Of a stretch of DNA of 62,945 nucleotides, positions 17,101 to 62,945 are shown piece after piece; position 1 is the stretch's first letter, and every line of letters begins with the position of its first letter. Position numbers and translations under genes: made by a program. Origin of the DNA: Saccoglossus kowalevskii. Its lineage: Eukaryota; Hemichordata; Enteropneusta; Harrimaniidae. The notes beneath the pieces were generated by a model, which was not told where the DNA came from, did not search any database, and saw only the letters and a program-made list of their open reading frames with translations. Location of the stretch: assembly GCF_000003605.2 (NCBI RefSeq), contig NW_003153249.1, positions 449,836 through 512,780 of the forward strand, in the 5' to 3' direction.

Positions 17101-20100
17101 CACATAATGTACAAACTGGTCCACGCATTTACATTCCATTTTTCTGGTTTGATATTGACTCATTTGCAGCCCTGTCATTTGTGAAACTAGGATTTTACTT
17201 CCTATAGCATGTGTGTGGGTTGTTGTTGCTGCAATATACATATAGTATTTGCGGCAATATGACTATTACCAAAACAAGGTAATGCTTTCAGCATTCTCTC
17301 GCCAGTCGTTTACAATGTGCCTTAGGACTTAATAATGGAAAGTCCAATCATTTCCAAAGCTTTATCTATTTCAACAATGTTCTGACTATTGAAGACACCT
17401 CTACTCAACTTGTTTTTTGTTGGTTAAGATAAAAAATAAAAACATTATTATTTCCTTGTTCATTACATACGTTTATTCTATTCGCGCTATCTTTACATGG
17501 TTGTCTTCCAACTAGTAATGCTAGTGATGTCTAATAACAACTTGCCAAATTACAATCGAGTGGTGGGTGGGTCACAGTTAAGTACAAATAAGCCACTCAC
17601 TTCCAAAGAACAAATATAATCATTCTTTCCGATCAAGTACTTTAACCTCCCCCTCTTGATTCAAATGACATAACCAGAAGACTTAAGACATCACCTACTT
17701 CCTATAACACGCAACACCATATTCACATAATTGTTCATACATGTATACATTGTCACTGTAAAATCAATTCCATAAATTTACCATTGGCTCCAGCAAATCA
17801 TTTGCCCATTTAACTATAGCCTCCTTTGTAATCCATCTAATACTTTTGTCCTGTGTTTCAATTACACAACGGTAGTCAAAAATGTCAGCTTCTATTATTT
17901 GAACACTCTGGAAAACACAATCCTATTATGAAGGTCACGTACATTTATATTGCGCTGGTCCCGCTAACTCTGGACGTCAGCATTGCCGCGTAGTAAGTTT
18001 TGCAGTCACTCAGTTGTCGCAGCGTATCGACTTTTCCTTCTTTGCGCATGTTCTACGTTATCGTTCTCTTAAAATATCCCAGTCATTTATGTTCAATCAA
18101 GGTCTTGACAATAATACACGACCGCGGCCAGCTGGCGTCATGAAATCTATGCATTAAAGTCGGGCGAACTGCGGCCGTTTGATTTCCTATTCTCCCAAAA
18201 AGCTTGCGATTGGTAAGAATGGTTATTAATATATTGCCCGATGCTCTTTATTTTTTTTTATTTTTCAAGGTAAGAAATGGATACTTGGAATTGACATTTC
18301 ACCGGGACAACTCTAGTTCGTTTATAGTTTGGCGATGACAAATAACAAATATATAATAAATAGAATTTGTTTAATCATTTGAAGTTTCACCCCTTCAAAT
18401 TACTGAACATGATCCCCATGAATTACGGTCAATTTTTGTACTGTCTCGGCTTGTATGACAGAAGTCGACAACAACGCATCCTAAATGCGGCATTAAGAAA
18501 CCAGCGACGATTGACATTACAAACAAATTATTACCGGGATACTGTCGATATGCATTTCAAACAATCGAAATTATTATCGAAAGTCGACAAAAATAGTTAT
18601 ACAAACACATCGTGAAGAGTCAACAATCAGGAAAGAAACCCCAGAATTTACACCGATGTACTTTCCAATTCAGACAATCATACCGTAATTGCCGTCTCAA
18701 TCAAATCTAGGTTAAAGGGCAAATTGCTTGCATATAATTATATATAGTTAAAAACTAAATATATTTGAATTTTTTGTTTTTTGTTTGAATTTCAACGTTT
18801 GTGGAAACCAATAGAATAAGTACGTGTATACAATAGCGATATGTTCATTACTGACGTCATCACCTAGCGCCCCTATAGGCGAAATGACGCCAGGCAAAGA
18901 GGACGTTGTCGTCAACTTCACAATCCGTTTTATACCCGATATTTAGGGCATTTCGCAGCATATAAAAGTTGTTTGTATCGCCAGAATTCTTCCATAGATC
19001 TTAAATTTCATGTACGTAGTGACAAAAGCCAGACCTCTGCTCCCCTTTAGTTCTTAATCATAGATATCATTTTTTTCAGAAACCAAAACACTTTTGTATA
19101 CAATCAAGATGGATGTCTGTATTTTGTTACTTACCATCAGTGTTGTTGAATCCGCCAACATATCTGGGAGCTAATTCAGTGCTACCTTGTAATCTGACCC
19201 AATCACAACCATCGCCAATGGTATCTTCATACCACCCGCATTGGCTATTCTCAAAATCACATGTATTTGCTGTGACTACAAGATAATAGTAGTAATAACA
19301 GTTAATATATTTTTGGCATTAGAAATTTTTATTGTATTTTGAGTGAAGCACAGCACCAATCTGACAGTCTTATTGTCTTAGTTAATAATATCGTGAACAG
19401 TGCAATAAACTTCGATGTGCTTAGCTTTATTCGAGACAAGCAGTGGGGTCTATTGTGGAATGAATATATCCACAATTTATGCGGGAAGGTAAAAATACCT
19501 GATATCAAAACAAATAAAAACTACACAATGAAATACATTTCTGTGTTGTATTCAATGATTAGTGGGCGGCATCATTTCATTTGGTAAGGGCAATATAACA
19601 AAACTTTAAAAGCAAGTCAATACCATACCAGTACTATAATGTCTTAAGTCTTAACGACATGAGATGACTTATGAAGAAGTCTCTGTTCGGGGGTAATATT
19701 GCACAGGGCAATCAGAACAAAGATCTATAGAGATACTGCATACAGTTCTAAACACGACGAGAATAAACTCTCAACCAATGCCCAAGCCTATACACAGGTC
19801 TTGGTTCTTGTGTCACTTGATGTGACTTTAGTCATGTCTTGTGTCGTTTCAGGTAATACTATCTTGATCAGTTGTGATGTTGTATACTGAATCTAGTAAA
19901 ACAGTGTATATATCTCACTTGTACAGTATATTGGTATATCAGTGATGTCTTTATCTTGATATAGTTCCCGGATATATAGCCCACTGTGCTTGTATACTGA
20001 AATCATGAGCTAGATACGTAAGACTTCGAACGAATATGAACTTATAAACAGCAATGCGTATAGTTCTCAATTAGCTAACACCGAAAAACCAATCAGCCCA

Positions 20101-23100
20101 TTTTAAAAGATCCAATAAGTTATGATATATTTATTAGCTCGAGCTGGCTTCATTATGTCACGAAACAAAGTTCAGTCCTACCACACTACTACATTTTCAG
20201 CAGACGGGAGTCAAATATATCAGAGATTCTCCAAAGACTACTTCAACAAACTTTTCTTCATTAATGTCACAATACAGTGAAATGACTTTTCTATTTTCTT
20301 TTATGAAAACACATGACAACTTACAATTCAAAAGAGTGGTAAACTACAGATTCTACTGCTGTCATGAACAAATCTCGTTTGCAATATCATTTTACAGAGC
20401 GAGAACTCTTCTTTGATATACGACCGACTCAAAATAAAATGTTTGGGTGGCTGCCATCAACTTTCTCTCGATTTGGGGGTAATAAACTTGATACATATAT
20501 AGATCATAATTTAGTTCTACTTTTCATTTTTGTTTCACTACTCATGGTTCCTATTACTTTATTTATACTTCTTCTCACTAAAAAGGGTCTCTTATTTCTG
20601 CTATCAATTTTTAAAGGGAATTCCCCCTGACTATGCTTTGCAGTCAAACAAAATGAGTGATACAATTCCATTGTAAGTGTTGATATCGTATCAAGCTTTA
20701 TGCGTCAGTGAATGAAGATCATGTTTTGAAAGAACTTACTATTAACAAGTGAAAATAATCAACTCGCTTACAAACATGGGTGTAAAAACAACTTAGACAG
20801 TTGATCCACATATTATTCATTATATCTTACTTGTCGTGAAAAATAATTTAGTTGTTTATTTTGTTAAGTTGCACCATGCAGTTTGTGTCGGTAAATATTT
20901 GAGTAATTGTGTCACTAGTCTGAAATACACCTAAAAGTATGTGAAAGTATTCTCTTTGTCTATATGAGCAATCACATAGGTGATTGCTGCCCAAATTGTA
21001 CTTAATTCAGTCGCTACGACCACACTCATCTCTCGTGAATACGCAAGAATGCAGTGATTTCACGGTAACACGATGCATCCAATAATGCACCTTTGCGAGG
21101 TATTTTAAAGGTAGACAGTTTGAGTACAGTTGGAAACGTTAGAGTGGACGGTAAGAGCGGAGACCTCGAGATTGGTGACAGCTGAATTGAGTCGAAGACT
21201 GAGTGGACGACAGGACAGTTCAGTACGCTCACTACTCTGCGTTCATATATAAAATATCACCTATCTTATTCCCTGAAGGTACTCTCAAAGCCAAGCAACA
21301 TACCCCAAATTCAACCAACACATTTTCCTCTAACGACGAACCACATCCAATCCCAACCTGACAGCAAACAGCCCTGCGCCCCCATTAACAATTGTACAGC
21401 TGCTTTGTTGTTAACAATTTATAATATAACTCTAACTTGTGTTTTCAATCGCTATTTAACTGTTCATTTCATTTGCTGGGTAATAGCATATGAGATGAGT
21501 GTGTTCACTCCCAGTTGTTTTGTGAATAAAATACACTATGTAGATAACTATGCAGAATTGTGCATGATTGTTTACCTGGCTGCGTGGGGAAAAGTATTTT
21601 TTTTAACTATTAGAGTACGTATGTACGTAATAGGCGCTAAGTATCTATGTACCATGAGAATGGAGAGATTGATGGTTTGTTGTAATTGATTCACTTCAAG
21701 AAACTCAAATAATTATATAAATGTTTCCAATAAAAACGCATCACAACATGTATCTTCGTGTTGGATTCTCCATAAAAATGCATCAGAGACACGCTGTTGC
21801 ATTTGATTTTGTCGACAGTGAATACAGATTTATAGTGAGAATTCTGCCAAGGTCACATATAATGCTCAAACGACAGATGACTTACTAAACCTTAGCTTAC
21901 AAAGATGCAACTGACCTGGACACGTATTTTAGCTCACTCGTATACGGTTTTCCGTTCTCTGCTTAGTATGCAATCAACAGGGTAGTCTCTACTAGTGACA
22001 TCCTGTTTTGCTGATTGGAATATATTTAACATGGTGTAAATATTTAAGATTGGGAGAAAGGAAAACGAGACATAAATTCAATATTTTAACAAATGATTAT
22101 GAAACACTTTCTGTATCGTTTACCCAAGTTTGGGTAAACACGTCGTACACGTACATACTATACTGAATGACAGAATAAAGACAAATGATTTAATTTGTAT
22201 ACTGATATGTTGACCATCCAGCTTTATTCAAACCTGTGTATTTTATAAGCAGTGTGCGTTAAATAATTGCAATCGAAGAATAAACAAATATTCTTGCTGT
22301 AGAATTTGTATTCCAAGCTTTTCTCTGCGTTTTTATAGAGTCAAATATATGTACTAAATAGAAGTACACTATGTCAATTGATCAGTGTACAATTTACTAT
22401 GCCGTAGTGGCACTTATCATATATCACGCATCGATGACGAGGAACTGGCCTATCAGTTCTAACACGATTAAATTAAATTAATTAAAGCTGTAATTAAGCT
22501 AAAATTATTGTTTTTGAATGGTTGTTTTAAAATTCTAAAACAAAAATTGATATGCCTGACTAATGTTTAAATTATACTTCTCTGTATGTAACCTTTACCA
22601 ATCTAAAATTGTCAAGAAAATTAACGCTAAGGGGAAATCGCAAACTGATTGTTTCTATGTAAACAAGTTTGGGTCATGTATTTTTAGTACTTTTACTAAT
22701 TCCTCTTGTTATACTAGTTAGCCGGGTACATCATTTATCTTACGAACACGATAATTGTACTTCCAATGATGTACGTCTTGGTCATCTCCAATCTGTTGAC
22801 TCTTGTGTACCACCTGCATCGCTAGACGCTGGTTCCACCATTGACCCTAATGACTTTGTTCTTTGGCTCAAGCGTTGTTTTGACCGTGGTCAATGATGAA
22901 ACACATGCTGCTGCATTTAATCTGAATTTCAATATACTACAGATGTTACATTTTTACCAGAAAATATTATACTTATTTCAATGTTGTCCAGATTTCAGAA
23001 ATCGCTGTTGACACGAAAGTTATCGCCATTAGTGAAATTTTAATTGAAACGATGTATACGATTTAAAAATACGTAATTATGTATTACACTCGCATTTTGG

Positions 23101-23981
23101 TTTGTTTTATTATAAATGTACACCCCAAAACATATTATATTTCCCAAAACATAAAATAAATCAGTCTGATTATTGCTACACAAATTGGCATATACAGCTA
23201 CAACTATACCTTCACAATCACCGTTATGATGACAGCAAATCCTATCTCACCTATGCGAAGTCAATATTGCATTTCTTTATATGTTTCTATTGAGAAAAAC
23301 TGTGAACAATTTCAAAATGTGGGAGATGAAATTATAAAAATATTTGGTAAACACAAGTCGTTTTTGAATAAAACATAAAATCCCCACTGAATCAAGTGTT
23401 TGATTTGAAAACAGCTTTGGGTTGCATAAACACGTCTGCAGATTGACAAAAATTGGACAAGCCTGTTAATGACAGTTTCTGAAAACAGGGAGCTGTTTCG
23501 AACATGTAAGTAAAATAAGCAATGTGCATTGTCGTCATATGGCAACATAATTATATATGAGTTTTAATAGGTGTTAGCATCGAAATTTCATTTTAAACAG
23601 ACATTTTATTTTTAAAGTACCTTCCGATATCCAGCATGTATGTTGATAATGTCGACAGCAGAATAATTCTATAAGTTTCCATCTTAGAGTTGATTATTGA
23701 GTTGGACTTGAATTGGCTAGTTTGTGATTCGACAACGTTATATAAACAACATTATTTGGATGAAATACAAAACAAACACCGAGGGAAGAAGAAATCAATT
23801 CCAAAGTAAAAAAATCCCACCGCTTGGTGAATTGTAAAATAATAGTAATTGTTATATGAGGTTAAATATCAACAAATGATTTGTACATAGTTGGTAGCCA
23901 ATATACACTCATAAAAAATCACTTACCTGTGTGCAAGGAGCCAGAAATAAACATGATTGCAAGAAAATATGCATACTCCAT
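227..23981 (-). CDS. MAM and LDLa domain type I membrane protein (MALRD1-like), 27 coding exons
   Basis: Coding exons in gene order: 23981-23927, 19275-19135, 14259-13994, 13675-13468, 13013-12855, 12460-12363, 12126-11956, 11209-11116, 10943-10764, 10622-10458, 10313-10060, 9970-9886, 9605-9483, 8762-8637, 8423-8338, 8228-8052, 7833-7584, 7469-7335, 7224-6895, 6655-6527, 6238-6077, 5622-5465, 4706-4499, 4017-3874, 2181-2094, 1938-1890, 340-227. They total 4155 nt (1384 residues plus stop); all introns are GT-AG and the frame is kept throughout. Layout: signal peptide, then MAM-LDLa six times, transmembrane helix, short tail. Known of the families: MAM domains mediate adhesion or receptor contacts, LDLa modules bind calcium and ligands. 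Inference: a cell-surface adhesion or scavenger-type receptor resembling MALRD1/Diet1 in its domain order; ligand unknown. The last exon is the least certain. Joining by transcript evidence was not possible here. Confidence 0.88.
3874..6238 (-). CDS. MAM domain 6 and derived LDLa 6 (exons 21-24)
   Basis: Exons 6238-6077 (phase 1-1), 5622-5465 (1-0) and 4706-4499 (0-1) give MAM domain 6, about residues 1085-1249. It shows the expected pieces: CHFDEYKPYC start, F-W-Y-H-M-Y in the middle, and DIAIDDVTFTQSC near the end. Exon 4017-3874 gives a juxtamembrane cysteine-rich module, residues 1261-1301. Its six cysteines fit an LDLa pattern, but the usual D-x-S-D-E calcium motif is replaced by CPADCYDEEEF with a longer loop (WLNDGDVDC) before it. 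It may be a diverged LDLa that binds calcium differently or not at all. Intron 24 (2182-3873) carries a somewhat GC-richer patch around 3400-3720 that I could not assign. Confidence 0.86.
6527..7469 (-). CDS. MAM domain 5 and LDLa 5 (exons 18-20)
   Basis: Exon 18 (7469-7335, phase 1-1) starts the domain with CDFESGTCGW. Exon 19 (7224-6895, 330 nt, phase 1-1) carries the whole rest of the domain, ending ISGIAIDDLQFNNC. In the other five MAM domains this part is split by one or two phase-0 introns, so exon 19 looks like a fusion by intron loss. Exon 20 (6655-6527, 1-1) is LDLa 5 with six cysteines and the calcium signature DCDDWSDEDNC, residues about 1041-1076. MAM 5 is at about residues 883-1031. 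Confidence 0.9.
7584..8762 (-). CDS. MAM domain 4 and LDLa 4 (exons 14-17)
   Basis: Exons 8762-8637 (1-1), 8423-8338 (1-0), 8228-8052 (0-0) and 7833-7584 (0-1). The domain opens with CDFELDLCDW, has an R-L-A-S-P segment and VTFWYRMYG in the middle, and ends GYVAIDDVSF followed by SEC. It spans about residues 673-823. Exon 17 runs on without an intron into LDLa 4 (residues about 843-879), which has the calcium signature CTDNSDESSC and a rather long link between the two domains. An extra phase-0 intron divides the middle of the domain, as in MAM 2. Confidence 0.9.
9483..10622 (-). CDS. MAM domain 3 and LDLa 3 (exons 10-13)
   Basis: Exons 10622-10458 (1-1), 10313-10060 (1-0) and 9970-9886 (0-1) encode MAM domain 3 (residues about 462-621): CDFESGACGW at the start, CHLEFWYHVG in the middle, then ICIDDVVFIDC. 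Exon 13 (9605-9483, 1-1) is LDLa 3, with CIDKKKVCNF and the calcium signature DCMDSSDEQHC. For exon 10 the acceptor TTTACAG before TGCAGTACAGC was chosen over a second AG six bases downstream, because only the first keeps phase 1. For exon 13 the acceptor TTTTTAG was chosen for the same reason. Confidence 0.9.
10764..13013 (-). CDS. MAM domain 2 and LDLa 2 (exons 5-9)
   Basis: Exons 13013-12855 (1-1), 12460-12363 (1-0), 12126-11956 (0-0) and 11209-11116 (0-1) make MAM domain 2, residues about 229-392. It opens CDFQNGFCDW, has AQLISPVL and MRFYYYMFNRHFG in the middle, and closes GNIAIDDVTFTATC. Exon 9 (10943-10764, 1-1) starts with a proline-rich linker (APRKSPPPIRSP) and then LDLa 2. In LDLa 2 the usual acidic signature is altered to DDCLNGEEEATRC, so calcium binding may be weaker. 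The C-terminal end of the exon is TGT-A followed by the donor GTGAGA. Confidence 0.9.
13371..13441 (-). pseudogene. Remnant of a duplicated LDLa exon in intron 4
   Basis: Read on the minus strand, 13441-13371 translates to ACVTKDLVCDIVNNC and then GDNSDEM, nearly the same as the middle of LDLa 1 in exon 4 (13540-13470), which lies just upstream. The nucleotide match is also close. The copy lacks the first cysteines, the final cysteine and a usable donor, so it cannot act as a complete module. It is a partial tandem duplication of the exon 4 end. Confidence 0.75.
13468..19275 (-). CDS. MAM domain 1 and LDLa 1 (exons 2-4)
   Basis: Exons 19275-19135 (1-1), 14259-13994 (1-0) and 13675-13468 (0-1). 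The first opens the mature protein with TANTCDFENSQCGW and ends in a phase-1 donor GTAAGT. The second carries CKVNFWLHSSAR. The third has GTAIDDVEFVDC and runs on directly into LDLa 1 (residues about 188-223) with the calcium signature NCGDNSDEMNC. MAM 1 covers about residues 24-179. The 4.9-kb intron between the first two exons is long because a Kolobok-like element sits in it. Either of two AG acceptors six bases apart in exon 2 would keep the frame. Confidence 0.9.
14802..19046. mobile_element. Kolobok-like DNA transposon with THAP finger, 4245 bp, in intron 2
   Basis: The ends are long inverted repeats of about 160-200 bp. The left starts AGGGGAGCTGAGGTCTGGC; the right, reversed, starts AGGGGAGCAGAGGTCTGGC, and both continue with GCTGCGAAATGC about 60-75 bp in. 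The element is flanked by TTAA (14798-14801) and TTAG (19047-19050), read as a TTAA target duplication with one change. TTAA targets and a THAP zinc finger in the transposase are known traits of the Kolobok superfamily. Inside, a THAP start lies at 15047 on the plus strand, and further short open stretches occur on both strands (for example 15461-16011 plus, 17910-17760 minus). No continuous transposase can be read, so it looks degenerate. The rest of the interior shows nothing I recognise. Confidence 0.8.
15047..15160 (+). CDS. THAP zinc-finger N-terminus of the Kolobok-like transposase
   Basis: ATG at 15047 opens 37 codons: MVRCCAYKCHN, then F17, P21, R26, W28 and L29. This matches the start of a THAP C2CH finger (C-x4-C spacing, the conserved proline and tryptophan). 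The C-terminal CxxH half would lie downstream and is not continuous in this frame, which ends with TGA at 15158, so it may be an exon end or a decayed gene. THAP fingers bind DNA; here the finger would recognise the element's own ends. It sits about 245 bp inside the left end. Confidence 0.7.
   Translation: MVRCCAYKCHNDSCYIFTEIPNQISRGWLREIGKGLT
19276..23926 (-). other. Intron 1 of the MAM-LDLa gene
   Basis: The 4.65-kb first intron carries no exon of the gene that I can support. Its upstream part (about 21700-23926) belongs to the inverted duplication. Between about 22330 and 23850 this copy has about 1.1 kb with no counterpart in the plus-strand copy; that extra piece includes a 75-codon plus-strand frame (22669-22896) with a hydrophobic N-terminus (VFLVLLLIPLVILV), which I do not recognise. 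A second unrecognised plus-strand frame at 20364-20630 has one hydrophobic segment. A somewhat GC-richer patch lies at about 21020-21240. Confidence 0.5.
23927..23981 (-). CDS. Exon 1: signal peptide of the MAM-LDLa gene
   Basis: ATG at 23981 in the context TTCGACATGG opens 18 codons, MEYAYFLAIMFISGSLHT, followed by one base and the donor GTAAGT. It has the form of a signal peptide: short, hydrophobic core FLAIMFI, small residues near the end. The phase-1 end fits exon 2. The same exon in inverted form lies at 34560-34614 with 13 of 18 identical residues, which supports the choice of start. Confidence 0.88.
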
Positions 23982-24038
23982 GTCGAAGGAGTCGTTGAAT
24001 TACAGCCTCAGTTTTCCCCGCATGCGATCGTTGTGTCA

Positions 24039-24046
24039 CTATATAT
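24039..24046 (-). promoter_or_regulatory. TATA-like box of the minus-strand gene
   Basis: On the minus strand the sequence GTGCATATATAGTGACAC lies about 60 bp upstream of the start codon. The plus-strand paralogue has TGTAAATATAAAGAAACAC at the same distance, followed in both by ACAACGAT. Position and conservation suggest a core promoter with a short 5' leader of roughly 30 nt. Start of transcription is inferred, not seen. Confidence 0.5.
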
Positions 24047-24700
24047 GCACCTCTCTGTTGTGTAGTTCCCTTGACATCGACGTATAGAAAACCGTGCTAG
24101 TAAAACATAAGTTCGCCTGGACAAATGTCTTTTCAAATAAATTAAATGAAATAAACGGTACGCTAAATGTCAGTTGAATGCCGGTATGAATCTTCACTCG
24201 ACCTTTTAATAACGTATTATATGTATGTACACACAATTAATGTAAATGCTAATAGATTACTTTATTTTTCATATCGTATACAGAAACGCTTTCATTATTG
24301 CCAATTTCATATCCTATGGGGTGAAACCTTTTTGTTATTTCTCAGTTTATTAAACTTATTCTTATGTTGTTTCGTATTCGCTGTTTGTCGTTGATACAAA
24401 CTGGCCATTTAATAATTATCTTGATGACTACCATTAAAGTAATGATTAATCGCTTATTAATCACCACATATTATAACTTGAAAGAACAAAACAGATATGT
24501 AGATGCTAATGGCTGGATACGAATACGTCAATGAAAGAAACTGCCGCGGAGGTCTAAATGGTCGGCGATACTGAGATGCCCAACATAGTTATCTCACACA
24601 CGGCAACTAATATTAATTTTTGTCTATCTAACAATGCAGCAAAGTAAATTAGGAAAATAATTGGCAGAACCTACAACTTTTGTGGTCAGTTTCATTTCTT

Positions 24701-27700
24701 TCTTCAGTCTTCTTTTAATTGCGACATACTGTGTATAAGTAAATTTTGATGCATTTACGCTTATTTTTTGTTTTAATGTCGCCGATTCATTTTCCCATTA
24801 TTTGATAATGTATTAAATATTTAAGGATATACGTTTTCCAGGTCCAATTAACCAATAGCAACCTACAATATTGCCTGAAAATTAAATGGATTGAAAAAAA
24901 ACACTGTAAAAGCCTAATATTCGAGATAGATCAGTAATATTGTAACAATTTGCATATTATTTGAAAACGACGATATTATATTTACACATGAAATCGAACA
25001 GCTGATCGATAGATACTTGACATGTGAAATCGAGATTGTTTACTAACCGTAATAACTTCTGTTTGGGTTCTAACCTTGAGTGTATTTATATTGTATTACA
25101 CAACTAAACAATGAGATATAATCTGTGGTATGCAATCTTGTACGTATAACACAATAGTCTCGGACAGTAGTACCTTTTCACTAGAATTTAATTTAAACTT
25201 TACATTATAAAAAAATGTTGTGAACATGTGTAGACAAAGGAAATATTGGACAATTTGTCACTAAATTTTCCTTGCCAAATATATTCAATATTATGTTCTA
25301 ATATTGCATTCTATATGCCTCTGTGTCTCACTACAAGATTTCTGTCTATCTCGATCGCTACATTTCATTTCACATTATAGTATACAGCTGACACTAGTGA
25401 AAATAAAACCCACTGACACAATGCAACCAACATTTAGCTCTAGTGGCAGCAACAATCTACAGTCCATGTCTGCTGCAGCAAATCGTCACCACCTAAACAC
25501 TCCCAACCAATCATCACTGATCTAATCCACAATTGCATCTGCATAAGATATCACTCTATTTAAACTGCACAACGCCAATCACAAGTCTAGTGATGGTAAC
25601 ATTCCACGTCAACAGTACCATGCCTGTGACAACCGTATTCAACCTGACAGTACCCTAGGTAATTCGACAAACTGACATAATTATCCCATGCCTATGCCCC
25701 ACTCCGGAAACTGTAGCTGGAATACTGAGAAATATTGGATTGACCAGCTGTTGCGAGTAGACATTGAATTTCAATTGTGAATCTCTGAGGTGCTAGGTAG
25801 GAAGAACCCATACCTTGGAAAGCCCGCATTTAGAATGTATACAATGGACCTTAAACTCGCCTGTGAGACGAAACCTGAATAAGGCCGAGGTATATGCTGA
25901 CCAGAGCAGGACCTGGTCTGTTGGTTGACGACTGGCGAAGCACATTCTTCAATAGATGTAAAAGTTAAATAGTTACGTCCAGTTCAACGACTAGAAATGT
26001 TATTACTTTGGCCAGGAGTTTGTTGCGTCCAAATCCGTTGATCATGGCAACAGTATTATAAACTGTTCAGTAGTGAGTGGAGAATATTCTCTGTATTGTG
26101 ACAAGTCGATATTATAACATCTCACTGTTGTTAAGCATGCTGTGATTGGTTGAGACCCATTCACATGACATCGAATAAAATTGGATATTACATAGTATAT
26201 TGTCTGCCAAGTAGATATTACATGATATATCACATAGATGACGTCATTGAAACTACTGTGCATAACAAATTGTCGTTCGTCGCAGTGGTGCTGCCCGGCC
26301 GCTGTTGCTTTCGGGTTGCTTTCAAACTTTCAACTTTAGGTATCCGAAATAGACAGCTAACTTGCCAAAATGGATAATAAGTAAGATACTCGTTTTTTTC
26401 ATTTAAGGCATACTTAAAGTGAGTGATTCACACTGCTGAAACACAGTCACTAAAAAGAGTTTCCGTGGCTGAAAATAACATTTCGCAGATTTTTCAGCAA
26501 ACAATGTATGTATGCTATTGATTAACGTGAAACCTTTTATAATACATAAAATAAAATATTGCATACTTCAAATATAAATGTTGTTATTTTGTGGGAGAGC
26601 GGGTGTGAGTGGTGTGTGGTAGATGTGATTGTGCATGGTGGATGTAGGTTCGATGTGATAACGCAAATAACACATGGTCACCAATATCGCAATTTTTACA
26701 ATTCAGGAAAAAAATAAAAAAGGAAACAGAGTCAAGCCAGCGAGTGATACATGGACCTCCTGAGAACAAATTATGACGTGATGTTAGCGTTTCCAAAAAA
26801 AAATACATCCTGCACCACAGCACATACAATAAACGTTTATCGTTTATGCGCATATTATGCAACTGGAAATAATAGCCAGCTGTCTTAGTTATTCTAGCTT
26901 TCCTCGTTGTTACCCACACACACTCACTCTGTCTTTAAAACTGTTTCAAACATTCAGCTGACTTCTCCCAGTGTTGCATGTTTACTGGTGTTCATTTGAA
27001 TTTTTATATTTGTTACCTATTCCTGCCTGATGTTAGTTATGGTACGCAAATAGAATTACATCGCGTCTGAATGTAATTCGGGCATCAGCAATTATGTTTG
27101 TGCATAAAAATCATTATGACATAGAATTTTCTCACAAGAAAAACAAATGGAGGACTGTTCTAGTCATTAGGCAATACAATCTTGATGTAATATTTTAGCA
27201 CACATAATAAAATTCTAATTATTTACTGTAATTTAACAGCTGTAATATATAGATATCACATGCTGGAGAAATGGGAATGTTGGGGATTAAATCATGAAGT
27301 TGATAAGCTTGCACTGGGCACATAATTTGTACTTATTTCAATGATTTTGTTCAGAATATATGCTTCCAAGCTTCGCACAAAAGTAATTTAAGCTTCAAAA
27401 ATATAATTTTGTTAATGTGACATTTTTATTATTTAGCTTTGTTGCTATTTTTTTTTCAAAAAACTGTGCTCAATAGTCGTCATATTGGTGATGTAAATTT
27501 GTTCAATTTGTGAACATGAACAATCAGTTACAGAATTCATCCATTGGCATAGTCTTATATATGGGATGAACTCCCCCTTATGCTTCAACATTGTATTACC
27601 AACATTCAATAGCTAATCAACTAATCAGAAGCAACTCATTTTCACCATGTAACTATTCTTAGTATAATTTTGTTGTAATTGTTTTTGTTTATGTTATGTT

Positions 27701-28302
27701 TCTTTGTGTTGTAAATTCTAATGTAACAGTAATTGGGTTTATTATATTAGTTTTTGTCATTTTATATAACGTATATATAATAATATTAAAGAACCATTCT
27801 GATAACAGAAATGTGATGGAAATTGTTTTTTCAACCGGTATTCGTTGCTTACGAAGTTTTTTGGTTTGAAAAAAAAAAAACATTTGAAAGACGCAATGTA
27901 AATGTTTCGAAAACTTCTGCAATGCAATATGTTCATTGAATATCCACATCTTATTGACAAACGATATAACAGTATCAATGCTCTGAACAATGCACTCGTA
28001 GTAAATGTAGAAAGACCAGCGATATCCAGACTTATATGACGCCTTGTGTTTTTTTAGGAATGAATTATATCACTTATAACATTAATGATTTGGAACTTGC
28101 ATTGGTTTCCTTGTAATTATTATACCGTGCTTGTATGTAAAATTACTGGAATTATCAAGAAAACACATGCACATGTAATTAGAAGGTACAACAATATATG
28201 TATCAAAGAGAGAATATACATTTATTCATTCATGATTCGTGTATCTGACATTATTTTCTTGACATAATCGTCAACAGAGTGCAGAATCATTTAAAAATTA
28301 CT
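24701..28302. other. Spacer between the divergent genes, left part
   Basis: About 3.6 kb with no coding exon I can support. A patch at 26270-26390 is richer in CpG and ends with CAAAATGGATAATAAGTAAG, which could be a plus-strand first exon with a start codon four codons before a donor, but no following exon was found. The region 25560-25950 is also somewhat GC-richer without a recognisable frame. Upstream regulatory elements of both genes may lie here. Confidence 0.4.
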
Positions 28303-31300
28303 GTGGCCCATATATACAATTTGTTCGCTACTTGAAAATTGCTCGGCTACTTAAAACTTGCTCCGCTACATGAAAATCGGTTGGCTACATGAAAATCGTT
28401 CGGCTACATGAAAACTGCTCCGCTACATGCAATCGCGCCGTTACATGAAAATCTCTCCGCTATTTGAACAAAAATCGGTCGGCTACTTGAATATCGCGCC
28501 GCTAAATGAAAATTGCTCCGCTATCTAGAAAATCGCGTCGTATGTTGCGAGGTAACCTTCGACGACTTCTTGAAAACTAGCAGCTCAATTGATTTTATAC
28601 ATGTAATGTAGATATCTTGGGTTAATCTCTGTTAGATATTTTCTTTTTGTGACGATATCAACTCAATTCTTAACAATTATTTTTTTATGTTTGGAAAAAT
28701 AAAATTATACGTGGTCATGCTTGACATGTATGTGGAATCATCAAAACAACGGAACTAGAAGAGAAAGCTTTATCACATTTTATTTTAGTAAAATAATCGA
28801 ATAGTTCAATTACAAAAAAACACAATGCGACACGTATTATGTACAAGGCCAGGCAAAATAATATTTATCCTTTATAATCCTTGAGTAAAGGACACATCTG
28901 GTGTTTGCATGTTGAACTTCCACGCACACTCGCTAAGATACACACAAACAGAGGTATTCGTGATATTGCTAGGTTGTTGTATTTTGTTTATGAATGTATT
29001 ATTTGTATTTACTGATAGTTTCTGCAATAGGACCTTTGGTATCAGTATTTCAGAAAATCCCGTGACCTCCAACAACAGATAATTTCAATAATAACTTGTT
29101 GCATACGTTGCAAGGCATGGTGTATTTATTTTTATGTAATATAAAATACAATTATATGTATGAACAACTGACTGTCAATGTGTGCAACTATCGGTATACA
29201 TACATAATCAATAAAAATATAAACTTGTCAATTTTCAAAAATGTAAATCTTTAAAAATATTTTTTTTGGAAAAAAATCAATATCAAACATACAGACTGCA
29301 AATTAGTCCAGGGAAGATATATAATTGTCGTAAATAAACATTTCTGAACTGATCATCTCGCCAAATTTAATTTAAATAAGCTGTACTTCTGACGTACGAG
29401 TTATTGGTAAATAAATACGCTGTAATTGCAATGTACGAGTTATTAGTATATATAAATAAAATAAATAATTTGAATATATATATATAACTGCAAGGATTCA
29501 ATCAACAAGATATAAAACATGTGGGTGGCCGAAACTACATACATTCCAGATATGCGTAACAACTTAGCCATCTGCCATCGATGTATCTACAGCAGAATGT
29601 TTATTTTCATTGAAAATTCAAGAACTTCACTGCGCTTGTGCAACGACCTTACCCGGAAGTTTTAGCGCACGGAAAATTCTTCGCGGACACCGGGCTTCAA
29701 ATGAGCAATTACAAGTTTGTAATTTCGTACGAATTATGATATTTAATATGGAAAATGGTTTATACACTTAAACAAATTAAGATTTTTGTACGAATTACGG
29801 AAGAATGGAATAGCTGATTACGTTTTACATCTTGCTCATGTCTACGAAATTACGTTTTTTTATTTGTTTAAATTACATTATTACGAAAATAAAAACAATT
29901 GATTACAGCTTACGAAAATACCCCTTGTCGACCCACACATCACATGATTCGCAACTACGGGTTGTGAATCGATCGATCACACTAATGTTCATGACTTATT
30001 TAACAAAAAATCGGTGTGATTGTCAAAGCTGAGGCGAGAGAATGGCCAACTAAACTATTTGCACAGACAAATAATATGTTATCTAAAATAATTGAAATGT
30101 GTGCGCTTTTGGCGCAATTTGGTTGTGAATATGTCGTGCACACATTTCTAAAATATAAATATAAAAGAAAGCGATTACGTCAAGACAAAATTTCGCTCAT
30201 AAAGCCCATGCACATATCATGGCCGATGTTTGGTCTATAATGAGGTACACCCAATTATAATTTGATCTAAAATGCGATATGTTTTTCAACTTCAAATGAT
30301 CTATGACGAGGTATGAATTTGGGAGTTCGGTTAAAAAGCCCTACCACTGCAACTAAGAAATATGTCCTATCACGTCAGTAACTCAGTGCCCCGGGATAAC
30401 ATGTCTGGTTGAGACGAGTCGTAGCAGTGTGTGTGTCTACGACCATGAGTGCACAGTTTTCTGTTGAGACTGAGTCAGATTTTTTCACATTGTAAAACCT
30501 TTTGTAAAACTTATAATCAATGGGAAGACAGAATTCAGTTACATGACGCAATATTTACTAATAAACACTATTTGGAATAAACAAAATATTTCTATATGAA
30601 CAATAATAATAATATTATAAGGTTTTTACAAGGAAACCTCAAAGTATGCACGAAGACAGTAAGCAAGAGTATGCTACGGCGTACTGTCTGAGTGCATACT
30701 TTGAGGTATACTCGTAATAACCTTATTCTTCTACACCTTTTTCTTTCTAAGGATACATCATGGGAATGTCGAAAACCAAAAAATTCAGAACACAATCAGC
30801 GAACTTCTTTGTGTGAAGTTTGGTCAAACCTTGGTGGCAGCCATGTTTGTTTTTATGATTAGAGGACGCTTACGCGCGTAATCATTCCATATTTGGAATT
30901 TGCATTTCCTAATATGGTAGGTTGAAAATACCCCGTAAAATACCGCAAATTTAAGGCATGCTGTAACTTATGGCGCTACAGTGACAGATATATAATAATA
31001 ATTTGCAATACTCAAGAATGGACGAAAAACTAATCATGTACTATAAAAACGATGACAGAATCTCAATTGCCAAATCTGATATATGCGTAGATCAAATTGA
31101 TACTTGAGTACTAAATAGATGAAGTTGTACGACATCGTATTATAATAGTAGAAACAAACCAGGAGAAGGTTCAAAACCACGTGAACACGTGTACCCCTCT
31201 TCCAGCGGTGATAATGACACATAAACTTATAATGGCAAACAATATGGATTTCTATAATGTCAATTACAATAACAGCGAAAAATACATACTAGTATGCATG

Positions 31301-31851
31301 ATATCGCAAAACATTTGTAAATTATCTCGTGTAGCATTTCTTCTCAAAGTTAACTTAAAGAGCTATGTCAAGTCATTGCTCCCTATTTAAATTTAAACTC
31401 TTCATTTTACGTCACGTGTAGCAAGCGTTTAGTAAATATACATACGAGTTTTTTACACCATGCCTTATGTGCATCATCTTCAGCTCATTGGGGTGCATAC
31501 AGTTTCCCATTTGTTTTCTTTAAAAATTAAATAATTTGTGTCAATTTTCGTATAGCCAACCGATTTCCATGTAGCGGAGCAATTTTCATGTAGCCGACCG
31601 ATTTTCATCTAGCCGACCGACTTTTTCCAAGTACCGGAGCGATTTTCAAGTAGCGCATGCATTTTCATGCAGCCAACGGATTTTTACATAGCGGAGCGAT
31701 TTTCAAGTAGCGGAGCGATTTTCAAGTAGCCGGCCGATTTTCATGTAGCGGTGCAATTTAAAGTATCCGACCGACTTTTTTTCAAGAAGCAGAGCGATTT
31801 TCAAATAGGGTCGGATTTTCATATAGCGGACAAATTGTATGTATGGGCCAC
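28303..31851. mobile_element. Fold-back-like element with subrepeat-built inverted ends, 3549 bp
   Basis: The left end (28303 to about 28545) begins GTGGCCCATATATACAATTT and continues with about a dozen copies of a roughly 20-bp unit of the form GCTACATGAAAATCGCTCC. The right end (about 31545 to 31851) is the inverse: units of the form ATTTTCATGTAGCGGAGCG, finishing with TATGGGCCAC. Inverted ends made of short direct subrepeats are the mark of fold-back (FB-type) elements. No clear target duplication was found. The 3-kb centre has no transposase frame I recognise and includes a palindromic repeat copy (30600-30830). Confidence 0.7.
30600..30830 (-). repeat. Palindromic interspersed repeat, copy 1
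   Basis: The core is a hairpin: ACCTCAAAGTATGCAC at 30636-30651 against GTGCATACTTTGAGGT at 30692-30707, with ACAGTA and TACTGT just inside. The flank on the minus strand (TTCGCTGATT, then ATTCCCATGA) is shared with copy 3 at 43680-43870, so the repeat is larger than the hairpin. It is nested in the fold-back element. Confidence 0.65.
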
Positions 31852-33989
31852 CATACAAAATTATAATAAAGATTCTCTTGAAATAATAATGTTCGATAAC
31901 CATCGGAAGATATTAAACAATTTTAAATTTTATATTCTACAATGCCTGTTGTTGAACATATTGGTGCAATGACTTTAGTGTATGTGTATGAAATAATAGG
32001 TATAGACGAGTCTTCAATCTTTTAGGTAATGTTTGATGTAATCTTTTTATGACGAAGTACATCGCCAATATGATCATCAATTCTTTCATTGGTAAATGTG
32101 ACCAAGATTGAAGTGACTTGTACAGTCAATATATGACTTCGCAGGCAATTATATACCAATGAGTATGTATTCTGATGAACATCATCTGTTGAAAGCATAC
32201 TTCTCAAAATATCTTAGTGGAAATAAACAAGAGATGTACGAATGTGAATAAAATATGACGGTTTTTACATATATGATAATAATTCAAATGTATGATGATG
32301 ATTAGTTTAACTTATCTTATTTCAATCGGTTAATGGTAATGCTATGTTTATGGCTGTTATATGGTCGTTCTTTAAATGCGACTTTATTACCTTAGATTAG
32401 ATTAGCTTAGTTTTTTATCCAGTATCTACCATCTAATCTATGTGACAGGTCCTTATTCCGTGTTAACATGTAAGTGTATATGTCTGCATTTAAGGACAAT
32501 GCGAAACAAATGCAATGCAAAATTTTGATTAGAATCAGCATTATCACTATCACAATTCTTTTTTTAAGAGTGGAGGTCGTCGTGCTGCGCATGTGCGACA
32601 TTTGTGTTGATAAACATTGATTTTCCCACAATCCAATGCGCTTTTCCAATGACAATCACAATTTGGCATGCGCAACTTACACAAATTACCGCCGGTGACT
32701 CCTTCCTATCACCTAAAAAATACCCAATTAATGCTTGGTGACACTTACGTTTGATCTGCCACTATCTTTGTTTATATGAGACCCATATATCTCGCGCATG
32801 CGTAAATTACGGGAGCATATACACATAATTCCCAAATAATAGTCTGAATTTGCTGACTAAATCTTACCTATATGATTTACGATATTACTATAATAGCAAG
32901 GTTTCATTTAATAAAATACGCAAATTATATTTCAGTATAATGGTAATTTGAAATGTTACTTTGTACTAAATTTACTATTTTACATATTAGTATCCTAACT
33001 AGCCTACTATAGAAATGAAAATAAAATGTCTATTTTTGCAAATATTGCTGTTATAGTAAACTGAAACCATATCTATTGGGAAAGATAAGATTTCATTTAC
33101 TTAAAAGGAATTAATTTTCGTAATTTCAAAACCACATTGAAATGGGATAATATGTATGTTTTCTCATTAAAAACAATTGTGCATTTAAAACCATGTTATG
33201 CATAAAACTTGTGTTATTTTACCTCAGTAAATATCAAATTTGAATTTGCTTCACTTTGTGGAAAGTGTTTCTGTAAAAAATATGTGAAATTTAAATTGTC
33301 TTCCCAGTATATTTTTGGCTATGAATTTACCATATGGAGACGCCACATACGTATGTACGCTCGAATGTTAATTGCAAGTTACACATCCGTAAATTAGTAA
33401 ATTATTCTAAATAGTAGACTACATCTTAATAATCACTAATCAATTATTTGTTTCAAGCTGTCAAGTTACAGCTCTGCAAACGCACAAATACAACTAAGAG
33501 TTCTGTGTAATGAAGCAGAAGACACTAAAACATTTGAATTGTCTGCAGTAGCAAGTGGAACATGGTGGGTGTGTACATTTCTGACGCCATATTCCAAACA
33601 TCGACTGAACGCGCTTAATTGGTCTCTATTACGGTCAAAGTCGTTCTTTTTTCTTCATTATACATGCAAGAACATTACTATAATTATAGTCTATACATTC
33701 AACTAATCGTTACTTTCCTAAAATATGGTCAATCTTGACTAAAAATTATATTATTCGGCAATTCAATATAAAATTTTCTCCTTTCTGGGTGATCTGATAT
33801 AACTGAATACGGAGAAAGAGTGAAATGCACGCGAGACCGAGGATTCCCGGCAAAGCGTAAGCCACCAGCGTAGCCGAGACACACGCTCGTCGGGGATTAG
33901 TACGTTCGACACCCCTAAACAATAGCGTTACCAGTCTGAGAACCACCGTGATAACTACAACTCGGGGAATTTGTTACCCTTATGTACAT
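31852..33989. other. Spacer between the divergent genes, right part
   Basis: About 2.1 kb without a supported gene. Three motifs resembling NRF1 sites (GCGCATGTGCG near 32588, ATGCGCAAC near 32669, CGCGCATGCG near 32795) lie within 220 bp. A CpG-richer block occupies about 33800-33960, just outside the right arm of the inverted duplication; it looks like an inserted repeat but I could not name it. Confidence 0.35.
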
Positions 33990-34491
33990 GCGCCGATTCA
34001 CTAACTGACGACGAAAGTTGAAGGTTTTGCCAAACTTCTAATACGTCTTTGTGGCTGTGTGCGAGACACCGCTCTGCACTTCAAAGTATTGCCGCCCGTG
34101 TAGACCCTGGGAGGTTAAAACACGTAATCGTATTCCGCCATTAGTTATAGTTATAGTATGTGGTGATTAATAAGCGATGCATCATTACTTTAATGGTAGT
34201 CATCAAGTTAAATTATTAAATGGGTAGTTTGTATCAACGACAAACATCAAATAACAAACGGCAGAGAAATAAGATTAATAAACACAAAAATGACAAAAAG
34301 GTTTCACCCCATAGGATATGAAATTGACAGTAATGAAAGCGTTTCTGTATACGACGTGAAAAATAAACTAATCTATTAGCATATACATTAATAGTGTGTA
34401 CATACATATAATACGTTATTAAAAGGTCGAGTGAGGCTTCACTAGAACGATTTTATACACGTCGATGACAAGAGAACAACACATCGGAGGT

Positions 34492-34502
34492 GTAAATATA
34501 AA
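34492..34502 (+). promoter_or_regulatory. TATA-like box of the plus-strand gene
   Basis: TAAATATAAAG lies about 60 bp upstream of the start codon at 34560, at the same place as the CATATATAG box of the minus-strand paralogue. The shared ACAACGAT follows both. Confidence 0.45.
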
Positions 34503-34559
34503 GAAACACAACGATAGCGTGCAGTGAGAACTGTGGCTGTAATTTAGCGACTACTCGAC

Positions 34560-34614
34560 ATGGCGTATACATATCTTCTTGCAATTGTGTTTATATCTGG
34601 ATCTTTGCAGACAG
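34560..34614 (+). CDS. Exon 1: signal peptide of the plus-strand paralogue
   Basis: ATG at 34560 in the context CTCGACATGG opens MAYTYLLAIVFISGSLQT, one base and donor GTAAGT, the same length and phase as exon 1 of the minus-strand gene. The changes between the two are mostly conservative (E to A, F to L, M to V, H to Q), which suggests both copies have been under selection. Confidence 0.85.
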
Positions 34615-37600
34615 GTAAGTGAGTACATATTGGCTACCGACGACGATTTGTCAGTGGTCGTTTTAACCTCAGATATCAATTAATTTTAATTTAGATTTCA
34701 CCATGCAGTACAATGTTTTGCCATTATACATCTCCTGGGGTTTGCTTTCATTTCAGACTGTGTACATTACCCACCGTCATGATTCAATTTTTGGAATTGT
34801 CATTCAACATAGCCGCATAGACATACCTGCAACATATAGGCGATTCAATTCAAAATTTCTGTATATGTACGTCCGACTTTCTTCTCACTAAAAAAACGAC
34901 AGTGATTGGCCATGATGTGTGCGTATATAACTTTGCCTGTATTATAAGTGAATAATTGTTTTCTTTATATTTAATATTTATTCGTATTAGTACTAAGAAA
35001 AGGGGTGCACGGAAATAGGGAATGCGTGGTATGTACAGCATAGTAAATTATTTGCTGATAAATGTAACCCTAACCGGGAATCGTTTGGAATATAAATCTG
35101 AAGCAAGAATGTTATTCTTCGATTGTAATCACGTAACGCCCACTCCTAATATAATACACAGGATAGAATAAACCTGGATTGTCAACTTATTGGTATAACA
35201 ATTAAACCACTTGTTTGTAATCTGACAATGAGTATGATATGCACTTGTATGACGTGTTTACCCACAACGAAAGTATCTTGTTTCATAATCAAACATTTGT
35301 TAAAAAATATTTTAAAGCCCGTTTTACTTTCGCATAACCTTAAATGGTTGCACCATATTAAATAATTCCCAGTCAACAAAACAGGGGGTGACTAGTATGA
35401 GGCCGCCCTTTTGGTTGCATACTGAGCAGAAAACGGAAAACCGTATACGAGTAATTCTTAAACCGGTATCCTCTGTCGATAAAATGCAACAGCGCGTGTC
35501 TGGTGCGTTTTAATGGGGAATCAAGTCTAACATTAATAATTTATTAATAACATAATAATTGAGTTTTCCAAAATTACAATAAACACTCAATCTCTCCAAT
35601 CTCATGGTACACAAATAGTTCATTACATGATGATAAAAAATCATTAACAGTCAACAGGCAGCATATTGAGTTTTTCCTCAGTGAAACAGAAATACAATCA
35701 TGTCCAATTCTGCCTAGTTACCTCCTGTCACATGATGTACTATATTCACAACACAATTGGAAGTAAACAACGAACTGCATATTAAGAACAAATTTAAAAT
35801 TAAACTAATTATTCAACTATACAAACAGACTTACATTTTATTAGCCATCATATGTTTACAATTCAACATGAAATAGAGTGAATAACGATTGACATTAGAA
35901 GTAGAGTTTTTAATAACAAACCAATTGTACAATTATGCAAATATTTACCCACATAAACTGCATAGTGCAGGTTGTATACAAAATAACAAAAGAACCACAT
36001 TTTGTTTACAAGCAGACAACAAATAATGTCTAGTGTGTGGTTTAACTCTTCGAGTTGTTTTACAACCAAGTCTATAAGAGAGTAGATGTTTCATGTCTCA
36101 TATTCACACATTTCAAACCAAAAAACGGCTATACACAACATGGATAAACTAGACAACAATGACATTGTTCATATCAACCATACAATGCAGATTAGAACAC
36201 GCTATTATTGGTTACAGCTAGTGTCTTTGTTATCAATCATGTAGAGGCAGTCGCAAGTGAAGAACTGTGTACAGCGGACGTGATATATAATTGCACTGAT
36301 AGTATCTTATGTATCAAGAAAATCCAAGTCTGTGACTTTTTAGCTCAATGTCAAGACCGGTCAGATGAAGCCCTGTGTCGTAAGTACACTTTATATTAAA
36401 CAAAATAGGCCATTGTCTTAAGTGATCAGTGTGAATATCACCAATGTTGCGAACCTCAAATCGCATCACCCCATGAAGGTCCAATTACGCTAACAATACA
36501 TCGTTTCTAAAACTTGCACCCTCTATTGAAGACAATTCTGTTCAAACAATTATGTTTTTTTTTGCTTTCTTCAGTATATTAAATTCTGTAAATAGTATAA
36601 TGTTCATTCGTAGACTTCTAAAGTTTAAAACGATATTGACGTTTTGAATATTATTTGTGTCACCCATTTAGATCACACAAGCGCTTCATCATTTGGTGTG
36701 CGATTTATAATAAGTTGCACTCCTGTGTTCAATAATTTTCCAAAATGAATATTTGAATTTACAGCAAATTCCAATTATTAAAAACTGACACGGTACTCCT
36801 TAAAAATGCTGTTGCGACAAAATATCTGAAATATTACGTCATAGTGATCATGCACATTTTGAATCATCAAATACAAATCCATAAATTACATAGAATCAAA
36901 CACATGGTCGGCACCAATAGATATTAATCATTTCTATCGCTACTAGAAAATAGATTTAAATTAACTATTTACCTAGACTTCGGGCATACTGACGGAAGCG
37001 AGTCTTTAAATGGATGCCATATTTACGTTGACGGCATTTCTACTCCAGTGCATAACACACAAATAGACTTCAATTGTAATAGAGGTCGCTGTAGCGAAAT
37101 TCCTAGATTACCCGTACGACGGTAGCAACACATATGTCGCAATTAAAACAATATCAAGTTGGGACTTCAATGAAAGAAAGACCATTTTCTATGAACGTTA
37201 AATAGTACGGTACGGGGAGAATGTTTTACAAAGTGAACATACTTCTTACCCTAACATGGAATATATATAAATATTTAGAACTCCAGAAGAATTTCAATCT
37301 AAGCAAGAAATCTTCTCGATAATTGGCAAGATAAAACATGTAGAAATCATGAATATGAGGTTATTTCGAAGATACTCAAAGTATGCACGACGACAGTGCA
37401 GCGGGAGTATTGACCGACGTGCAGCGGAGGTCTATGCGACGGTTTTACTGTCTGAGCTATGCTTTGAAGTATCTTCGTAATAACCTTATTATTATACATC
37501 TTTTCGTGAGGGTTTTCAGTCCCGAGAGACTGTCTCCGTCTGCAGGTTTCTAGTTGGTATGAATAATTCATAGTAGATGCTGATGTCACGCAATAAATTA

Positions 37601-48105: not shown

Positions 48106-48314
48106 NNNNNNNNNNNNNNNNNNNNNNNNNNNNNNNNNNNNNNNNNNNNNNNNNNNNNNNNNNNAAGGCCATGTATGATGGTTTCATTTTTCTTATGGAA
48201 AACAATTTTAATTAAAAACTTCTATGCTCCTGTACCCAACCGTGGGGGTTCATCACACTAAACAACAGGTGTCACTATTACTAAGATAAATGTACTTTTT
48301 TTTCATTAAAATTA

Positions 48315-50115: not shown

Positions 50116-50424
50116 GTAAGTCTTAAATATATGATTATTGCTCATTCATAGTAATCATCAGAAATATACAACTTCATTACCCTTACAAACAGATCATTCT
50201 ATGTGCCGGTTGCAAAACTTATTAATGTGAGAGCACAAATCTTACAATGAAGATAGTAATTGATCTACTGTAACTTTTTCCTGTATAGAATGCAATAACG
50301 AATACATATGGAATCAAATATAATAAATTTTCCAATGACAATACTAGTTTTCTTGGTATACCTTTTTTAAATAATATGCTTTAATATACAAGCTTAAGTT
50401 TACAGGAGTGTGCTTATTTCATAG

Positions 50425-50520
50425 TTGAAGACGGATTGTGTACTGACACTTGCAAGCTCCCTAATGATTCAGTTTTTGTGACTATGGCACAGATTGTGCA
50501 GACTGTGGAACGAGATATGG
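50425..50520 (+). pseudogene. Decayed second copy of the LNR-like exon (unit B)
   Basis: The acceptor ATTTCATAG is kept and the frame starts EDGLCTDTCKLPND like unit A. A stretch of about 36 bases holding the N-D-G-x-C part is missing, after which the GACTATGGCACAGATTGT of unit A is read in another frame. The donor GTAAGT of unit A is AGTTTT here. It cannot give a complete module. Confidence 0.75.
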
Positions 50521-50575
50521 CTAGTTTTAAATATATGATTATTGCTCATTCATAGTAATTATCACAAATATACAA

Positions 50576-59029: not shown

Positions 59030-59770
59030 ACCTTGAGTGATGCTTTAATTAATGAAGGTATACAGTTCACTTACCTAAAAACATATTGGGATAGGAATTG
59101 TAAAATGTACCCGTAGGGCCTGTAGTCTAGTCGCAGCTGAGTTTCTGCGATATATGATTTCTCAGGCAGTGAATCACATATATTTTTGAAATTAAAGTAA
59201 AATATTAAAATCATTTCATTACAATATTACAAGCAGTAAACATCAAGTTATGCTTTAATTAATGAAGGTATACAGTTCACTTACTTGACAACATATTGGA
59301 GCAGGACTTATAACTTGTATCTGTAGGGCTTGTAGTCTAGCCGCAGGTGAATTTCTGTGATATATGATTTCTCAGGCAATGAATCATATTTAGTGTTGAA
59401 ATTAAAATATTAACATTAATTCATTACAATATTACAAGCAGTGAACATCAAGTGATGCTTTAATTAATGAAGGTATACAGTCCACTTACCTGAAAACATA
59501 TTGGGACAGAACTTATAACTTGTACCCACAAATCTTGTAGTCTAGCCACAGTTGAATTGCTGCGGTATGTGATTTCTCAGGCAGTGAATCACACCTAGTG
59601 TTGAATTTAAAATAAATTATTAACATTAATTCATTACAATATTACAAGCAGTAAACATCAAGTGATGTTTTAATTAAAGAAAGTATACTGTTCTCTTACC
59701 TGAAAACATATTGGGATAGGACTTGTAACTTGCACCCACAGGGCTTGTAGTCTAGCCGCAGTTGAATTCT
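59030..59770 (+). repeat. 210-bp tandem repeat, array 2 (about 3.5 units)
   Basis: The marker GCTTTAATTAATGAAGGTAT or a variant starts at 59042, 59252, 59457 and 59667 (periods 210, 205 and 210). Units are similar to those of array 1 but form their own group (GTTCACTTACCTG instead of ATTCACTCACCTG). The last unit breaks off after CGCAGTTGAATTC and passes straight into the 0.86-kb repeat. Confidence 0.85.
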
Positions 59771-62700: not shown

Positions 62701-62945
62701 TGCGGGGCCCGATATGAAATGACTTAGGGGAAATATATATTCAAATCTGTCAACTTTTCCAATTGCCTTTCAAAAATTTTAGGCTGTTTTTTACATCTTG
62801 CGACAGACTCATGTGACGTTTGTCAACATACGATGCTTCAAATGTGACGTCTGTTAACATAAGATGCTTCAAATGAATTTTATTAATTTGTAATACTTTA
62901 GAATTGCAGGGTTAGATATAACAGCAACTTAGTCAAATAAACACT
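59770..62945 (+). repeat. ~0.86-kb tandem repeat array, running off the window
   Basis: GATCACCTGATCACTC recurs at about 59921, 60638, 61494 and 62339; AACTGCGGG-CCCGATAT at 60961, 61831 and 62699; CTACGATCTTCAAA at about 60725, 61598 and 62450. The period is 845-873 bp, except for a shortened first unit of about 717 bp. No frame is conserved between units, so it behaves as non-coding satellite DNA. Confidence 0.85.

Follow-up and report, generated by a model that had tools for sequence, protein, structure and literature searches.

We analyzed a stretch of 62,945 nucleotides from the hemichordate Saccoglossus kowalevskii (C4304:449836-512780; hereafter, the window), in which two gene starts face away from each other in mirror image. 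On the minus strand lies M, a long gene of MAM and LDLa modules. On the plus strand lies P, which repeats the promoter region and the signal-peptide exon of M in inverted orientation. We searched the genome (572 Mb in 4830 contigs) for further copies and will refer to them as Q (on C4304, beyond P) and as M' and Q' (on contig C6). Positions are those of the window, or window-equivalent for other parts of C4304, unless C6 is named. The features are:

20758 to 24691, minus strand: arm of the inverted repeat on the M side, with an uncertain far limit (about 21390 through M', likely 20758)
23927 to 23981, minus strand: coding part of M exon 1, the signal peptide, with a phase 1 end at a GTAAGT donor
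24101 to 24186, minus strand: promoter-proximal block of M, present in M, M', Q, and Q' and absent from P (about 85 bp)
24187 to 24478, minus strand: conserved upstream block of M, 90% identical to the P block
19275 to 19135, minus strand: M exon 2, the start of MAM1, phase 1-1
3875 to 19275, minus strand: downstream exons of M, with MAM and LDLa alternating (Pfam on joined exon peptides)
34003 to 36087, plus strand: P arm of the inverted repeat; firm to about 35934 through M', likely to 36087
34149 to 34441, plus strand: conserved upstream block of P, the mirror match to the M block
34560 to 34614, plus strand: coding part of P exon 1, the signal peptide, with its GTAAGT donor intact
36245 to 36379, plus strand: candidate exon 2 of P, one LDLa module, phase 1-1, stop-free, with AG/GT flanks
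36576 to 36669, plus strand: piece of a dispersed repeat outside the P arm, matching 20742-20651 and 5 other contigs
49987 to 50115, plus strand: candidate further exon, a cysteine module (CTDTC..DGYC..CDYGTDCIDCG), phase 1-1, whose link to P is unproven

M runs from its signal-peptide exon (ATG at 23981) through the MAM1 exon and an extended run of MAM and LDLa exons to about 3.9 kb. In the joined exon peptides, 6 MAM stretches (PF00629) and 4 LDLa stretches (PF00057) pass the Pfam threshold: three of each in the first 649 amino acids, and three MAM and one LDLa in the next 598. (These peptides were joined at approximate exon boundaries and exon M_13.4 was excluded.) By predicted splicing, the signal exon is phase-compatible with the MAM1 exon, as the donor after 23927 is phase 1 and the exon at 19275-19135 is phase 1-1. 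M and M' are both open over the seven exons that were also recognized in Q', which in M and M' are stop-free with one 3-nt indel, and dN/dS is 0.37. M has a MALRD1/Diet1-type architecture, and we predict a secreted or surface protein encoded by a long gene.

The earlier note on this DNA, which was made from the sequence alone, had placed mirror-image arms around the ATGs at 23981 and 34560, and these arms are real. A comparison of the M side to the P side gave 28 mirror matches. Seven of these are blocks of 45 to 356 bits, compared to 35.9 bits for the best of 20 Markov-1 shuffles of the plus side. The strongest block pairs 24478-24187 with 34149-34441 (90% identity, 356 bits). The next block inward (24104-23809 with 34438-34719; 75%, 193 bits) covers the leader, the signal exon, the donor, and the start of the intron. 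It is followed by 22323-21936 with 35078-35452 (76%, 251 bits), 21807-21764 with 35479-35522 (84%, 48 bits), 21687-21502 with 35572-35769 (68%, 73 bits), 20910-20758 with 35929-36087 (71%, 82 bits), and 20742-20651 with 36576-36669 (68%, 45 bits). Another 19 matches are between inverted minisatellites at 28.3 and 31.5 kb, and these were excluded from the arms. The last two matches have 37.4 bits each. We retained 24691-24661 with 34003-34033, which is collinear and reappears in the five-copy alignment, and we dropped 18372-18344 with 39943-39971, which is AT-rich and next to the noise level. In the opposite orientation, the two sides had no matches at E ≤ 0.1.

The outer ends of the arms are less certain. 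On the P side, the outermost block (36576-36669) is part of a dispersed repeat with matches on 5 other contigs (one copy also matches M and M'), so this block does not count as part of the arm. The block at 20910-20758 is missing from M'. For these two reasons, the far limit of the arms is uncertain. The last stretch that is supported through M' is P 35801-35934 (56 bits against C6), which corresponds to about 21390 in M; the direct similarity of M and P there is weak (29.7 bits).

The inverted homology thus covers the promoter region, the leader, the signal exon, its donor, and part of intron 1. The two signal exons (MEYAYFLAIMFISGSLHT and MAYTYLLAIVFISGSLQT) each continue with G/GTAAGT in phase 1, and TATA-like boxes can be seen by eye at 24045-24039 (TATATAG) and 34497-34503 (TATAAAG). 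The two genes had been described as sharing a promoter, a TATA-like box, and a signal-peptide exon. All three are shared in mirror image, but about 85 bp that separate the upstream block from the leader are missing from P, and the homology extends beyond the signal exon into intron 1. The missing segment is kept in M, M', Q, and Q', and by eye, the deletion in P is joined at a short shared TTCA.

A genome search with the 5' end of P gave nine matches at five loci: P, M, Q, Q', and M'. Q lies on the same scaffold at 82.3 kb, on P's strand and about 48 kb beyond it. On C6, Q' (484.95 to 479.0 kb) and M' (490.46 kb onwards) face away from each other, with ATGs at 484466 and 490943. These are 6.5 kb apart, and the interval between them is free of N runs.

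In an alignment of the five copies, 62 of the sites that divide them two against three set M and M' apart from the rest, while 2 join M or M' to another copy (gap-free columns only, without a root). M is nearer to M' than to P in every segment compared (89-96% vs. 67-90% identity). M and M' align collinearly for about 30 kb in window coordinates, a span that includes N runs and gaps; their identity is 86.8% summed over BLAST blocks (16306 columns, 7.4-27.1 kb), and dS is 0.156 over the seven exons. These comparisons show that M and P are inverted paralogs in a set of at least five copies and that the copies facing M group together. If the root of the unrooted tree lies on the branch to M and M', then the inverted duplication would predate the splits on either side. 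P, Q, and Q' show mixed patterns among themselves (P+Q 8, Q+Q' 12, P+Q' 1), and these shift from segment to segment, as expected from recombination or conversion between copies. Q and Q' share three blocks of 89-94% identity, and their match stops at 88208.

Q' (C6:484953-479037, loci L015 and L016) is head-to-head with M', is disabled, and contains seven MAM/LDLa exons. These are homologous to M_10.8, M_10.5, M_10.2, M_9.9, M_9.5, M_8.7, and M_8.2, in the order of M. Over 2637 columns of exons and introns together, the identity to M is 84.3%, and the odd-one-out sites number 284 for Q', 102 for M, and 96 for M'. At E ≤ 0.01, Q' had no match to the M exons that lie between the signal exon and M_10.8. 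The disabling changes are a signal-exon donor changed from GT to AT, three exons shortened by deletions (8, 2, and 16 nt), and one stop codon. In Q, a search that did not include Pfam recognized no module exon from the signal exon up to 92125, where an N run begins.

Because Q' is P's sister in the same head-to-head place and keeps seven exons of M, the inverted copy probably once reached far past the promoter and the signal exon and included most or all of the gene. The earlier note had envisaged a duplicated promoter and signal exon with new exons placed behind them. The inverted copying of both is borne out; that the copy stopped there is not supported, given the downstream M exons in Q'.

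What lies behind the signal exon of P? P holds the ancestral promoter region, less the 85 bp or so, and the first exon, and none of the seven exons of Q' were seen there. We ran Pfam on five plus-strand frames behind the signal exon, and only the frame at 36245-36379 rose above the cut-off. It has six cysteines and scores 25.8 bits as LDLa, compared to a cut-off of 24.1. Its codon score, from a model trained on the exons of M (LDLa exons included), is 3.2, and the best candidate in presumed noncoding DNA scores 2.1. A seed search and a splice-and-codon scan gave a single addition, the cysteine module at 49987-50115. It is the top phase 1-1 candidate in the plus-strand scan of 34.7-62.9 kb, it lies 13.6 kb past the LDLa exon, and it has no Pfam match above the cut-off. 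Within those 13.6 kb, no candidate rose above the noncoding codon level. A frame-broken duplicate of the cysteine module is found at about 50413-50545. The two proteins had also been said to part right after the signal peptide. In M the signal exon is followed by the MAM1 exon and in P by the candidate LDLa exon; P as a gene is a prediction and not an observation.

The LDLa exon does not seem to be a recent copy of a module of M: of its 35 residues, no more than 16 are shared with any of the six M modules compared, which do not include the partial LDLa at 13.4 kb. A DNA search with 36000-36700 found no relative over the LDLa exon, although only 6 candidates were scored and the search also missed M's own 71% block. 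We had considered that the exon might be nested inside the arm, but we withdrew this idea, as the outer block at 36576-36669 is a dispersed repeat. Either the LDLa exon was lost from the M line or it was gained in P.

The 293-bp upstream block differs less between copies than its surroundings do in four of the five pairs tested. For M and P, there are 28 differences in 286 sites in the block and 112 in 434 around it. The corresponding counts are 29/292 and 109/483 for M and Q, 10/276 and 39/515 for M and M' (p = 0.03), and 8/292 and 46/427 for Q and Q'. (These tests take sites as independent, the pairs are related, and the five tests are uncorrected.) There was no codon-type constraint in any of the six frames, and we rejected on these grounds an antisense open reading frame of about 75 amino acids that is open in M, P, Q, and Q'. 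Old gene conversion is not favored as the sole cause of the 90% identity, as M-M' and Q-Q' are also slow there. From these rates, we propose that the block is probably a control element under selection.

Together, these results suggest that P, Q, and Q' are truncated or disabled relics of an inverted duplication of most of the gene; we give this whole reading a probability of roughly 65%. In this event, most or all of a MALRD1-like MAM/LDLa gene would have been duplicated head-to-head in inverted orientation, and the facing copy would have been duplicated again to give P and Q. Internal deletions, point mutations, and mobile DNA would then have eroded the facing copies, with the 5' end outlasting the rest. 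Q' would now be a disabled pseudogene, Q a signal exon without a recognized module before the N run, and P a 5' relic. Several observations weigh against this reading. The start, the donor, and the LDLa frame of P are intact, and its LDLa exon is above the Pfam cut-off. The differences between the signal exons of M and P lean towards silent changes (pS 0.33, pN 0.12), but over 18 codons this is not significant (Fisher p = 0.098), and neither is the lean for P-Q, P-Q', or P-M' (p = 0.61, 1.0, and 0.43; 18 codons). The dN/dS of Q' is 0.57 against M and 0.41 against M', leaving out one stop codon and 11 gapped codons, so Q' has not been unconstrained for long. As these values are near the 0.37 of M and M', Q' may have died recently. 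Also, the exon dS of M and Q' (0.133) is below that of M and M' (0.156), contrary to the order from all columns. The slowing of the upstream block is not significant for P and Q (19/286 vs. 42/425, p = 0.14). Finally, a long N run separates P from Q and another follows Q: the long runs on C4304 are at -1780 to 0, 62946-80764 (17.8 kb), and 92125-122945 (30.8 kb), and the first two adjoin the ends of the window exactly.

Could P instead be a live chimeric gene, in which the inverted promoter and signal exon drive a new secreted protein that begins with LDLa and perhaps continues with the cysteine module? The intact ATG, the hydrophobic signal, the GTAAGT donor, and the phase 1-1 LDLa exon all fit this idea, as do the slow evolution of the upstream block and the low similarity of the LDLa exon to the six modules of M. 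But about 85 bp of promoter-proximal DNA are gone, the codon score of the LDLa exon hardly exceeds the noncoding level, the 13.6 kb without a further candidate contain debris that resembles mobile elements, and the sister Q', which has longer homology to M, is disabled. We think a live P rather unlikely. The specific version, in which P would work under the 293-bp block and export a small LDLa protein that may or may not include the module at 50 kb, is unlikely. It would belong to the arrangement of C4304 and was not found between the C6 pair.

Alternatively, the arms might have been kept since the block is a regulatory element shared for the benefit of M, with the coding remnants of P as passengers. 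The block is slower than its surroundings in four of the five pairs, including Q-Q', and lacks codon-type constraint. On the other side are the P-Q pair and the chance that old conversion between the arms explains the M-P and M-Q identities, though not the slow M-M' and Q-Q' pairs. As an account of why the arms persist, this seems very doubtful. Last, the arms could be alleles or repeats that were wrongly joined. The N runs before and after Q may be assembly gaps, and P was not found on the part of C6 that was examined. However, the interval from M to P has no Ns (the only N run in the window is at 48106-48164), and mis-joined alleles are unlikely because C6 has a head-to-head layout of its own with no intervening N run, M resembles M' more closely than P, and the site patterns favor M with M' by 62 to 2. 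We therefore rejected this explanation as unlikely, and consider an artefact of any such kind highly improbable. Relics of a longer inverted duplication remain our preferred account of P, Q, and Q'.

The window also contains repeats. Between the arms, 28302-31851 resembles a foldback mobile element: its inverted ends are degenerate 19-bp tandem repeats, and AAAATTA occurs near both ends (the ends were placed by eye). It was unmatched among the alignment blocks with C6, with the low-complexity filter on. Any part that it played in the inverted duplication is no more than speculation. PMC4079207 deals with a foldback transposon that is linked to satellite DNA. Palindromic, MITE-like repeats are at 30617-30726, 37359-37480 (by eye), and 43681-43837, of which the first is related to the third. 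The DNA from the LDLa exon of P to the cysteine module contains palindromic repeats and a helicase-like fragment. The fragment is an open frame at 39397-39702 with a weak match to DEAD helicases (13.1 bits vs. a cut-off of 26), which we take to be RecQ-like. Tandem arrays are found at 49250-49783, 59036-59768, and 59948-62945, their units being about 210 bp or about 850 bp long, and pieces of the 850-bp unit are also at 44848-45608.

Our literature search found no paper on an inverted duplication of a promoter and signal-peptide exon that gave a new chimeric gene, on head-to-head inverted gene duplicates with a bidirectional promoter, or on the expansion of MAM/LDLa gene families or their tandem duplication in invertebrates; this does not prove that such papers are absent. 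There are parallels to parts of the locus. As described in PMC8804323, mouse Diet1 has nine MAM domains interspersed with nine LDLa copies. M resembles MALRD1/Diet1 in that MAM and LDLa modules alternate; the likeness is one of module architecture, and M has six MAM and four LDLa stretches above threshold within the window. PMC3434034 reports a gene family of Schistosoma japonicum whose members share a similar core promoter and signal sequence, are spread over 18 scaffolds, and are expressed. Like the locus here, that family combines a shared promoter region and signal sequence with degraded members and surrounding mobile elements. Its copies are dispersed, whereas four of the five copies here are in head-to-head pairs, and ours are known from sequence alone.

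Two other systems are closer to P itself. Partial gene duplicates are a named class that includes partial duplicates with recruitment (PMC3449122). P is similar to the latter in that a 5' flank, a first exon, and part of an intron are kept, with unique sequence past the break. It differs in that Q' suggests a truncation that followed a longer duplication. In Drosophila yakuba, according to PMC5460883, chimeras arose from polymorphic tandem duplications, many of them very young and tested by RNA-seq, and chimeras with changed expression are documented. If P is a gene, then it too joins a copied promoter and start to new downstream sequence; but M and P are inverted and, judging by their divergence, older, and the case for P comes from the genome sequence.

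The locus shows a head-to-head copy of a long modular gene eroding while its 5' end persists. The leftover fragments resemble ready-made cassettes of a promoter and a secretion signal, which argues for caution in calling new genes without their relatives and transcripts. With two open copies, one disabled copy, and two that are apparently truncated, the set is a place to ask if a leftover can become a gene. Compared to the systems above, the locus adds one more case, inverted and rather diverged, of a process that is already known, and its useful detail is in the decayed sister copies.

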